A DNA stretch of 64,000 nucleotides from Lachnospiraceae bacterium (GTDB lineage Bacteria > Bacillota > Clostridia > Lachnospirales > Lachnospiraceae). Below the pieces are notes generated by a model. It worked only from the letters and a program-made list of their open reading frames with translations. It was not told the DNA's origin and did not search any database. The position numbers were made by a program, and so were the translations under genes. Shown piece after piece: positions 1,031 through 11,458 of this stretch (the stretch's first letter is position 1; each line of letters starts with the position of its first letter). The DNA lies in NCBI GenBank assembly GCA_022768745.1, contig JALELK010000033.1:1-64000 (forward strand), read 5' to 3'.

Positions 1031-1207
1031 ATGTCAAGTGTAACAGTTAAAGAGAATGAATCTTTAGATAGCGCATTGCGTCGTTTCAAGAGAAACTGTG
1101 CAAAGGCAGGAATCCAGCAGGAGATCCGCAAGAGAGAGCACTATGAGAAGCCAAGCGTAAAGCGTAAGAAAAAGTCTGAAGCTGCTAGAAAACGCAAGTA
1201 CAACTAG
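1031..1207 (+). CDS. rpsU: 30S ribosomal protein S21 (58 aa, below the ORF track cutoff)
   Basis: Translation [58 protein letters not shown]; upstream GGAGGGAGG ribosome-binding site. Confidence 0.97.
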
Positions 1208-1220
1208 GACTGATTCAAAA

Positions 1221-1250
1221 GAGATGCGATATTTCGCATCTCTTTTTTTA
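1221..1250 (+). terminator. Rho-independent terminator of rpsU
   Basis: GAGATGCGATATTTCGCATCTC followed by TTTTTTT. Confidence 0.9.
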
Positions 1251-1276
1251 TGCCCATTTCTGTCTATTTTTCTTTC

Positions 1277-1625
1277 TTTTTCATCTCCCTTTTCCCGCTA
1301 TCCGGACGCTCCACTTCCTCGCGCTCCCTTCTGGCTCCCCCCAACACTACATCCCGGCCCGGCGGTAATCCTCCCCTACGGTGACTTAAAAAGGATTTCG
1401 TAAATTTTATAGTCTCTGTGGTTTCGTATCTTGTTTGTGTCTGAGCCGTAGCCCGACATAAATAATGAGGGATACGAAACGACAGAGACATAAAATTAGG
1501 AATCCTTGTCCGGAACCGTAGGGGAGGATTACCGCCGGGCCGGGATGTAGTGTTGGGGGGGAGCCAGAAGGGAGCGCGAGGGAAGAAAGGTAAAGTCCGG
1601 ATGTTGGAAAAGTGAGGTGAAAAAG
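1277..1625. repeat. Long GC-rich imperfect palindrome (MITE-like or long-hairpin element)
   Basis: Core arms 1317-1381 and 1516-1581 are reverse complements apart from a single G insertion. Inner arms (about 1394-1430 / 1471-1507) and outer arms (about 1277-1307 / 1595-1625) are imperfect inverted matches. Loop 1431-1470. Confidence 0.9.
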
Positions 1626-1661
1626 CAGGCATAAAAGAGAGAGAGGGACATATATTGAAGT

Positions 1662-2615
1662 ATGGAGATTAGACGAGAGGACGAGTTGGTAAAAATATTT
1701 CCGGTGGAGCTGAGAAGGATGTTGGTGAGGCTGGAGTGGTATAGTCGGGGATTGGAAGAAATCCGGGTTCGGGTGGGACAACCGCTGATGTTTGTGTACG
1801 GTGGGGAAAGGAGATATCTGCACAGAAGCGGAAAACAGTTGTGCCGGGATTGGAGAGAGGGGCTTTTTGTAAATACAGAGCAGGTGCAGGAGATGATGAT
1901 GTATCTGTGCGACTATTCCAAGTATGCATATGCCAGACAGTTAAAGGATGGATTTGTTACCTTGCCGGGGGGAATCCGTGTTGGAGTGGCAGGCGAGTGG
2001 CTGGGAGAGGAAAAGAGTCAGTGGGGGGTGGAGAATCCTATGTTTTTGAATATCCGAATTCCGGGAGAAAAAAAAGGATGCGCTGCCTGGGTGCTGCCTT
2101 ATATTTTGCAGGAGGAAAGGGTGCTACACACTTTGATTCTGGCACGGCCGGGAGCAGGAAAAACCACTTTTTTAAGGGACTTGCTCAGAGAGATTTCTAT
2201 GCAGGAGTGGTGCAAAAGTGTGGCTGTGGTGGACGAGAGATATGAGATTGCAGCCTGTCAAAAGGGGGTTCCAACTAATGATATGGGAGTCCATTGTGAT
2301 GTATATTCCGGAGTGGAAAAGGGAAGAGGATGTATGCAGGCCATTCGGACTATGGCTCCACAGGTGATTGGAGTGGACGAGATTGGCGGTGATGAGGAAG
2401 GCGAGGTTTTGGCCTATGCCATGCAATGTGGAGTGAGTATTGTGGCCACCATGCATGGAGGAAGTTTTGGGGAGTATCAGGAGATAATCAGACAAAAGAA
2501 AAAATATGGACAGTTGCATTTTCAAAGAATTATCCGGATAAAAAAGGGTGAGGAGGGAAAACGCAGTTACGCTATTTATGACGGGGAAGGGAAAACATTG
2601 TGTGCAAATACATAG
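1662..2615 (+). CDS. spoIIIAA: Stage III sporulation protein AA (ATPase)
   Basis: P-loop ARPGAGKTTFLRDLLR; GVDEIGGDEE Walker B; first gene of an eight-gene spoIIIA operon. Confidence 0.95.
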   Translation: MEIRREDELVKIFPVELRRMLVRLEWYSRGLEEIRVRVGQPLMFVYGGERRYLHRSGKQLCRDWREGLFVNTEQVQEMMMYLCDYSKYAYARQLKDGFVTLPGGIRVGVAGEWLGEEKSQWGVENPMFLNIRIPGEKKGCAAWVLPYILQEERVLHTLILARPGAGKTTFLRDLLREISMQEWCKSVAVVDERYEIAACQKGVPTNDMGVHCDVYSGVEKGRGCMQAIRTMAPQVIGVDEIGGDEEGEVLAYAMQCGVSIVATMHGGSFGEYQEIIRQKKKYGQLHFQRIIRIKKGEEGKRSYAIYDGEGKTLCANT

Positions 2616-3329: not shown

Positions 3330-3713
3330 ATGGATATTATAAAAACGGCAACGGTGGGAATCGGCGCAGTGTTGCTGGCTTTGATGTTTAAAAACCAGCG
3401 CCCGGAGTTTGCAACTTTAATTAATCTGGCATGCTGTCTTTTTATTTTCTTTTGTGTTATTTACAAAATGCAGGAAGTGCTTTCTTATATTGAAGAACTG
3501 TCCGGCTATATCAAAATAGAGCAGACCTACATAGTGTCCATTTTGAAGATGATAGGAATTACTTATATCTCAGAGTTTGCCTCTGATATTTGTAGAGACG
3601 TGGGGTATAGCAGTGTGGCGGGGCAGATACAGATATTTGCAAAGATGTCCATTATTCTTTTGAGTATGCCGGTGCTTCTGACCTTTTTGTCCACGGTGGG
3701 TGAGTTCCTGTGA
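3330..3713 (+). CDS. spoIIIAD: Stage III sporulation protein AD
   Basis: Membrane protein in operon order; YISEFASDICRDVGYSSVAGQIQIFAKMSI is typical of SpoIIIAD. Confidence 0.95.
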   Translation: MDIIKTATVGIGAVLLALMFKNQRPEFATLINLACCLFIFFCVIYKMQEVLSYIEELSGYIKIEQTYIVSILKMIGITYISEFASDICRDVGYSSVAGQIQIFAKMSIILLSMPVLLTFLSTVGEFL

Positions 3714-9164: not shown

Positions 9165-9776
9165 ATGGTTTACATTACATCGATTTGTACAATAAAACAA
9201 TACAAAAGAAAGGTCTGCCTTAGTAATGGGGCAGACTTTGTTCTCTATAAAAAAGAATTGGATCGGTTCGGGCTGAAAGAGGAAATGGATTTATCGGACG
9301 AATTGTATCAGCAGATTGTTGAGGAAATCTTTATTCCAAGGGCAAAACGCAGAGCCATGCATTTACTGGAAAAGATGGATCGTTCTGAAAAGCAACTTCG
9401 TTTGAAATTGAAAGATGACGGTTATCCTCCGGAGGCAGTGGAGACGGCCATTGACTATGTGAAGTCTTATCACTATGTGGATGATGAGAGGCTGGCCAGG
9501 TCATACATCCGGTTTTATCAGACCAGCCGCAGTCGGATGCGCCTGATGCAGGACTTGATGAAAAAAGGCATCGACAAAGAGGTAATCCAGCGTTGTATGG
9601 AGGAGGAGAATGAAACCTCGCAAATTGAGATGATACATCGTCTTATGGAAAAGAAACACTATGACAGTAGCAATGCTACCAGGGAGGAAAAGGCGAAAAT
9701 GTACCGCTTTTTGATGCAGCGTGGCTTTCCGTCTTCTGAGATAACAAGGGCTATGGGAGAACTTTGGGAAAATTAG
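9165..9776 (+). CDS. recX: Regulatory protein RecX
   Basis: Directly downstream of recA; RecX repeats (SEKQLRLKLKDDGYPPEAVETAIDYVKSYHYVDDERLARSYIR); ATG at 9165. Confidence 0.92.
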   Translation: MVYITSICTIKQYKRKVCLSNGADFVLYKKELDRFGLKEEMDLSDELYQQIVEEIFIPRAKRRAMHLLEKMDRSEKQLRLKLKDDGYPPEAVETAIDYVKSYHYVDDERLARSYIRFYQTSRSRMRLMQDLMKKGIDKEVIQRCMEEENETSQIEMIHRLMEKKHYDSSNATREEKAKMYRFLMQRGFPSSEITRAMGELWEN

Positions 9777-9806
9777 ATAGAAACTACAAGATTTGGTGGC
9801 AAGTGC

Positions 9807-9835
9807 TTGACAGAATATACAAAGAACGATAAAAT
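9807..9835 (+). promoter_or_regulatory. Sigma-A-type promoter upstream of rny
   Basis: TTGACA (9807-9812), 17-bp spacer, TAAAAT (9830-9835). Confidence 0.65.
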
Positions 9836-9913
9836 TTATGTGTTGTATTTATATGCAAATTAGTAATTTTTCGTGTTATATATACAATAAAATTTCATAA
9901 AGGAGGTGCTCCT

Positions 9914-11458
9914 GTGCAGGCGATTATAGCTGTGATTGTGACGTTAGTTGTTGCAGTTCCGGTGTCTCTTGCCATTGCCAATGCTTACTATAAGAGCAAT
10001 TCTTCAAAGAAGATTGGTAGTGCTGAGGACAGAGCTCGTGAGATTATTGACGAGGCGGTAAAGACAGCAGAGACAAAGAAGCGCGAAGCTCTCTTGGAGG
10101 CAAAGGAAGAGTCATTAAAGACTAAGAATGAGTTGGACAAAGAGATTCGTGAGCGCAGAGCAGAGATTCAGCGAAATGAGCATCGAGTTCTTCAGAAAGA
10201 AGAAAATCTGGACAAGAAGCTCGACGCATTGGAAAAGAGAGAAGCTGAATACAATGCAAAGGAACAGGCGATTAACAAGCAGAAGGAAGAAGTCGCAAAG
10301 CTTAATCAGCAGAGAGTACAGGAACTAGAAAGAATCTCAGGATTAACCTCCGAACAAGCAAAAGAATTTCTTTTAAAGACTGTTGAAGAAGATGTAAAAC
10401 TTGATACAGCAAAGCTGATCAAGGAATCCGTTGCTCAGGCAAAGGAAGAAGCAAACAAGAAAGCCAGAGACATTGTTGTCACCGCTATTCAGAAGTGTGC
10501 TGCAGACCATGTGGCAGAGACCACCATATCTGTAGTACAGCTTCCAAGTGATGAGATGAAGGGAAGAATTATCGGTCGTGAGGGACGTAATATCCGTACC
10601 CTTGAGACACTGACAGGAGTTGAGTTGATTATTGATGATACTCCGGAAGCTGTAATCCTTTCCGCATTCGATCCGGTGAGACGAGAGGTAGCAAGAATTG
10701 CCTTGGAGAAGCTGATTGTAGACGGACGTATTCATCCGGCTAGAATTGAGGAGATGGTTGAGAAGGCTCAGAAAGAAGTTGAGACTTTGATTCGTGAAGA
10801 AGGTGAGGCAGCTACACTTGAAGTTGGCGTACATGGAATTCACCCTGAGTTGGTAAAACTCTTAGGAAAGATGAGATATCGTACCAGTTATGGTCAAAAC
10901 GTGTTAAAGCATTCTATCGAAGTTGCTCAGTTGGCAGGTTTGCTGGCTGCTGAAATTGGTGTGGATGTGAGAACTGCAAAACGTGCAGGTTTGCTCCACG
11001 ATATTGGTAAAGCAGTTGACCGTGAAATGGAAGGCTCTCATATTCAGTTAGGTGTTGAACTTTGTAAACGATACAAGGAATCACCGATTGTAATTAATGC
11101 GGTGGAAGCTCACCATGGTGACGTGGAACCGGAATCATTGATTGCATGCTTAGTACAGGCTGCTGATACCATCAGCGCAGCCAGACCGGGTGCAAGACGT
11201 GAGACGTTAGAGGCATATTCAAACAGATTACAACAGTTAGAAGAAATCACCGATGGATTTAAAGGTGTTGAAAAATCTTTTGCTATTCAGGCAGGTAGAG
11301 AGGTTCGAGTTATGGTAGTTCCTGAACAGGTTAACGATGCCGAGATGGTATTGTTGGCTAGGGATATTTCAAAGAGGATTGAATCTGAACTTGATTATCC
11401 GGGACAGATTAAGGTTAATGTCATTCGTGAATCACGAGTAACTGACTATGCGAAATAA
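9914..11458 (+). CDS. rny: Ribonuclease Y
   Basis: N-terminal TM, coiled coil, KH domain ([34 protein letters not shown]), HD domain ([10 protein letters not shown]). Confidence 0.98.

Follow-up and report, generated by a model that had tools for sequence, protein, structure and literature searches.

A giant hairpin between rpsU and the spoIIIA operon as a probable copy of a non-coding mobile element in Lachnospiraceae

The DNA analyzed here, referred to as the window, is a 64,000-nucleotide stretch of a contig from a Lachnospiraceae bacterium (genome G000). Between rpsU and the first gene of the spoIIIA operon it contains a quasi-palindrome, the parts and surroundings of which are listed below; gene names, here and throughout, are readings of translations made without a family search.

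1031..1207, + strand: rpsU, the upstream gene; a 58-aa open reading frame for protein S21, syntenic in four congeners
1217..1248, + strand: intrinsic terminator of rpsU; stem 1217-1229/1234-1246 followed by a T-run, the same in the congeners
1249..1652, + strand: the whole giant quasi-palindrome, comprising the element copy and native bases at its right edge; missing at the orthologous site of G001-G004
1249..1316, + strand: outer 5′ arm, decayed (from the palindromic alignment); its outermost ~27 nt are similar to the reverse complement of the native right flank, from which they may have been copied
1317..1379, + strand: 5′ arm, near-perfect and pyrimidine-rich, with a sequence unique to the window copy (from inverted repeats)
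1380..1517, + strand: conserved core, GGTGACTTAAAAAGG ... TCCTTGTCCGGAACC, 138 nt as against ~375 nt in full copies (from copy comparison)
1455..1460, + strand: junction of an apical deletion, ~235 nt lost; of the full core, the 5′ half extends as far as 1460 and the 3′ half starts from 1455
1518..1581, + strand: 3′ arm, near-perfect and purine-rich, the partner of 1317-1379 (from inverted repeats)
1582..1628, + strand: outer 3′ arm, decayed (from the palindromic alignment)
1629..1657, + strand: native flank with a sigma-E-like promoter for spoIIIAA, GGCATAA - 14 nt - CATATATT (from congener comparison)
1662..2615, + strand: spoIIIAA, the downstream gene; orthologues in four congeners are 53-62% identical

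A palindromic alignment (207 columns, 79% identical) places the quasi-palindrome at 1249-1652, so that the palindrome proposed at 1277-1625 in the sequence-only reading is real but slightly longer than was thought. Its inverted arms pair at 1337-1382/1515-1560 (46 nt, 100%), 1317-1342/1556-1581 (26 nt, 100%) and 1412-1430/1471-1489 (19 nt, 95%). The arms 1317-1381/1516-1581 had been described as 65-66 bp long and perfect except for one G, and this description holds, a run of six versus seven G being the single discontinuity. The AT-rich loop of 40 nt also lies where it was reported, at 1431-1470, but itself folds as a small hairpin. The right end, which had been placed within about 40 bp of spoIIIAA, lies ~10 bp before the start codon and overlaps the promoter-like sequence. 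The palindrome is far beyond chance: a perfect 46-nt pair within 2 kb has a chance of ~1e-20, the RNA fold reaches -278 kcal/mol (z -25) on the + strand and -254.5 kcal/mol (z -21) on the - strand, and no other comparable palindrome is found in the 64-kb window. The arms are indeed GC-rich (0.69, compared with 0.43 for the window), whereas the core has a GC content of 0.38; GC-richness is therefore limited to the arms.

The rpsU terminator precedes the window copy, and the motif GGCATAA-N14-CATATATT follows it; this motif is kept at the right edge of the hairpin, has a conserved counterpart in the congeners and resembles a sigma-E promoter. Since this sigma-E-like promoter separates most of the hairpin from spoIIIAA, the hairpin probably lies outside the spoIIIA transcript and has no role for spoIIIA. 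The earlier suggestions that the hairpin shapes transcription of the operon, or forms an RNase III substrate in its mRNA, both run against this promoter position. A cis-regulatory hairpin of the spoIIIA operon (an attenuator, a dsRNA or an RNase III site) would account for a location directly upstream of spoIIIAA; however, four congeners share this gene order and lack the hairpin, and the other copies described below adjoin unrelated genes (pckA, gntR/gerKA, spoVAD, a greA-like gene and purE), which, together with the promoter at its downstream edge, makes such a regulatory role very unlikely.

Searches of G000, initially with the palindrome and next with the first relative detected, matched the inner part at three other places and left the arms unmatched. 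Two of these places hold full copies of ~490-540 bp and the third a fragment of the 3′ half:

G000 C113:64690-65165, just beyond the window end: full copy between pckA and spoIID
G000 C7, ~9690-10215: full copy between gntR and gerKA
G000 C90: 3′ half only, ahead of a spoVAD-like gene

Both full copies are also giant hairpins and are longer than the window copy, which is short of ~235 nt of apex; positions 1373-1460 and 1455-1524 of the window align to a full copy as two separate pieces. Beyond copy 2 and the window end, a conserved non-coding stretch, CAACCTGTTGTTTTGAACCTACATTTACTTTAAACGGGATTC (L008:4227-4420), precedes spoIID; it is likewise present in G001 and, in part, in G002. Its weak match to 6S RNA runs off the searched stretch, and it is possibly a 6S RNA gene.

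To survey other genomes, the covariance model R1, which represents the 148 nt of the apex, was run against 397 genomes from the family and 392 from the order; this apical model and a further one (R3) replaced a basal model (R2), which was insensitive to full copies because of their apical insert. R1 matched only in G000 and in G316, a member of a different genus of the family, and both carriers are incomplete metagenome-assembled genomes (MAGs). A refined covariance model identified 10 full copies (E 8e-51 to 3e-41) and two partial ones in G316, and none in G717, which belongs to the same genus as G316. No element was found in plasmid and phage collections, nor, among the matches listed (compared with the copies by blastn and, for part of them, by pairing and inspection), in exact-motif scans of genome and viral contigs, of which the genome-contig scan used a single exact motif. 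Like the window copy, one G316 copy (L322) lacks the apex. Two copies, L310:950-1152 (in minus-strand orientation) and the apical copy of L306, consist of the apical domain alone with short locus-specific arms (GGTACCCGACCCG and GGTCCCTTCCCGGAA), as if the element could exist in nested sizes. The hairpin copies L305 and L308 lie at contig ends (C82 and C103 of G316), which suggests that such palindromes break short-read assemblies and hence are under-counted in metagenome assemblies. It was also observed that L307 and L308 each adjoin the start of a gene from one and the same family (N-termini MKKxxxNPYLPSYEYxPDGEP), and that the two genes face opposite ways with respect to the element. A ~57-bp intergenic repeat, GGATGRGCAAAAAAGATGACTTTTCAAAAATCCTTGTCCTGAACCGAACTTACG, in an uncultured member of the Clostridiales (L091:949-1018 and 3393-3462) has AATCCTTGTCCTGAACCG in common with the 3′ core border; it forms no giant hairpin and was set aside as a copy, and may be an unrelated small hairpin repeat.

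Comparison with relatives of the host indicates that these sites can be empty. In all four congeners (G001-G004), spoIIIAA follows soon after the rpsU terminator with no palindrome between them, and in G001 and G003 the sequence GTCATAA...CATATATTGAACTATG comes directly after this terminator. The gntR-gerKA gap is likewise empty in all four, the pckA-spoIID gap lacks the element in G001, and the regions upstream of spoVAD in the congeners are without it. In G717, one clear orthologue beside an element site was found; the site is empty, and the upstream sequence is too diverged to align. From the empty rpsU-spoIIIA site in four congeners, the window palindrome is therefore judged to be an insertion, and the copies in G000 are taken as gained in this lineage, unless every other one has lost them. 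Mobility of the element is well supported. An assembly artefact or chimera is scarcely conceivable as the source of the palindrome: the MAG does consist of 116 contigs and two G316 copies do lie at contig ends, but both flanks are syntenic with the congeners, and homologous cores of equal length occur in two independently assembled genomes.

The proposal of a non-autonomous palindromic element, made in the sequence-only reading, thus gains from the copies at other loci in G000 and in a second genus and from the empty orthologous sites in the congeners. Its expectation of several copies with target-site duplications was borne out only as regards the copies, because no direct duplication is apparent against the empty sites, and four copies show an inverted flank duplication instead. 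Arms that are not reproduced anywhere else had been named as grounds for abandoning the idea; taken literally, this is the case for the arms of the window copy, but the inner core is reproduced.

A full copy is one giant imperfect hairpin, in which a ~375-nt core with conserved internal loops is enclosed by fast-evolving paired arms; the whole hairpin measures 500-660 bases in the family. The core is 372-382 nt long in all eight full copies measured. Its identity is 60% between the two full copies of G000, 48-54% between these and the G316 copies, and 73-86% within G316. Some of the best-conserved core segments, such as CAAGCGTC and CCGTTCGGTGGA, are unpaired or bulged. In the apical domain, 35 of the 61 pairs are changed on both sides with pairing kept, compared with 14.2 in shuffles and 4-9 in slid structures, and covariation extends to 84 of the 139 pairs of the full core. 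This covariation supports a conserved fold, and template switching at the level of DNA can yield the same signal. Mismatches in the core, read on the + strand, are G-T in 69 cases and A-C in 41, an excess that is only suggestive of selection at the RNA level (G-U pairs), because the copies are related and mismatches are hence counted repeatedly.

Alternatively, these features might belong to a large non-coding RNA, structured and functional in the host, similar to OLE, ROOL or GOLLD, which was duplicated in a few genomes and of which the arms are the closing stem. Conserved unpaired loops, the constant core length and strong covariation are what such an RNA would show, as is the slight G-U excess on the + strand (69:41, in related copies), and six of seven copies located between tandem genes are oriented with transcription. 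However, neither G717 nor any of the four congeners of G000 would have this RNA, there is no synteny between its copies, and the deleted copies (the window copy and L322) and the half copy on C90 look like the decay of a mobile element. In addition, the arms show no G-U preference. Searches against Rfam returned only two tRNAs in the window at the gathering score and no credible match for a full copy at E<=10. A host RNA is therefore considered unlikely.

Outside the core, each copy has long arms (50-110 bp around the core in full copies) that are paired with each other, yet unrelated in sequence between most copies. A subgroup of four G316 copies (L305, L308, L311 and L316) has the first ~65-110 nt of the arm in common, and the inner arm therefore appears to travel with the element and then to drift. 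Selection on a + strand RNA would favor G-T mismatches, which can pair as G-U; in the arms, however, G-T and A-C mismatches are about equal (47 and 50). This balance fits homogenization at the DNA level by template switching, and it agrees with the gene-conversion-like process that had been put forward for the arms, which stay paired. Template switching during replication is a known mutation mechanism of quasi-palindromes (PMC8794818). Among the copies examined, none formed a recent pair whose arms are identical. The possibility that the arms derive entirely from copied host flanks was considered and rejected, because the arms of the G000 copies are missing from the short intergenic regions of the congeners and the inner arm is common to a subgroup of copies.

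The palindromic similarity does not stop at the inner arm in four of the G316 copies but runs on into the region where the downstream gene starts. When the left arm was compared with the reverse complement of the ribosome-binding site, the start codon and the following 60 nt, the scores were 30.0 for L320, 22.0 for L321, 18.5 for L307 and 15.5 for L309, as against a mean of 9.4 and a maximum of 14.5 for mispaired-locus controls. In L320 (GreA-like) and L321 the similarity covers the ribosome-binding site and extends a good way into the coding sequence; it reaches the first codons in L307 and lies mainly just before the start in L309. Since the start of the gene is native, the left side must be the inverted copy. 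Among the three copies of G000, the pattern is weak in one (c1) and absent from the others (c2 and c3). The match of c3 to an inverted gene start (14.5) was rejected because it overlaps a native terminator, and that of L306 was attributed to chance, as it is not the best of its column.

The inverted flank copies at four loci suggest snap-back copying from the free 3′ end of the hairpin during insertion. In the mechanism that we propose, the element, copied into a single strand (cDNA or ssDNA), would be joined by its 3′ side to an intergenic target; its free end would then snap back and copy the adjacent host DNA, whereby a stretch of the right flank would reappear inverted on the left. Later template switching across the hairpin during replication may keep the arms complementary while their sequence drifts, and the window copy would subsequently have lost its apex. 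The 3′ half on C90 would fit synthesis from the 3′ side, and deletion would explain it equally. Because the element contains no gene, it would have to be moved by another enzyme, and we infer mobilization in trans by a partner enzyme. It is tempting to speculate that a giant-hairpin body, snap-back insertion, an inverted flank duplication and arms rewritten by the hairpin, leading to copy-specific ends, together define a new class of mobile element, although we advance this only tentatively. A conventional miniature element (MITE) or insertion-sequence derivative, moved by a DDE or Y1 transposase and having terminal repeats that went unrecognized, would equally be small, non-coding, multi-copy, intergenic and palindromic with empty sites, as in ERIC, RUP and BOX. 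Nevertheless, its pattern of conservation would be reversed here, with variable ends and a conserved interior, and the flank duplication is inverted with no direct target-site duplication seen; we regard this origin as rather unlikely. Our preferred reading, to which we assign a probability of roughly 0.62, is that the palindrome is an internally deleted insertion of an undescribed non-coding hairpin mobile element of Clostridia-like spore formers. Searches of the open-access literature yielded no description of an element of this kind.

The element resembles MITEs in being non-coding, multi-copy and present or absent at orthologous sites, but it lacks terminal inverted repeats common to the copies; its arms are paired within each copy and differ between most copies, and it is the core that is shared instead. 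HEARO and omega RNAs, group II introns and the msr-msd of retrons are structured RNAs linked to mobility, and GTGA stands at the 5′ ends of the cores in G000, presumably as at HEARO borders. However, the element has a different fold, no Rfam match and no associated open reading frame seen; in a reading of the neighbors, no gene of the group II intron, retron or HEARO type was recognized beside the copies examined. Closer in kind are ERIC (RU-1), RUP and BOX, which are small, non-coding, multi-copy and intergenic, form long hairpins and are thought to be mobilized in trans (PMC10969869, PMC2229807, PMC3049150); intergenic palindromic repeat units of 103-168 bp have also been described (PMC2759123). 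ERIC, RUP and BOX are shorter and have conserved ends, whereas the element described here is 500-660 bp long with copy-specific ends and a conserved interior, and shows an inverted rather than a direct flank duplication. With OLE, ROOL and GOLLD it has in common a length of several hundred nucleotides, a strongly structured and covarying sequence and the absence of a protein (PMC12286853). By contrast with these RNAs, it is an unbranched hairpin without multi-way junctions, is multi-copy per genome and has no Rfam match. Template switching (PMC8794818) accounts for arms that are near-perfect and for double changes that bypass G-U intermediates, but it is a mutation mechanism and leaves the conserved core and the copies at other loci unexplained. 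We place the element among the small non-autonomous mobile elements as a variant, and there is a fair chance that it forms a class of its own. A seemingly unique palindrome thereby joins a family of related hairpin elements of 500-660 bases. These offer natural material for asking by what means non-coding palindromic elements that lack conserved ends can move, and how complementarity between the arms of a long hairpin survives sequence turnover.
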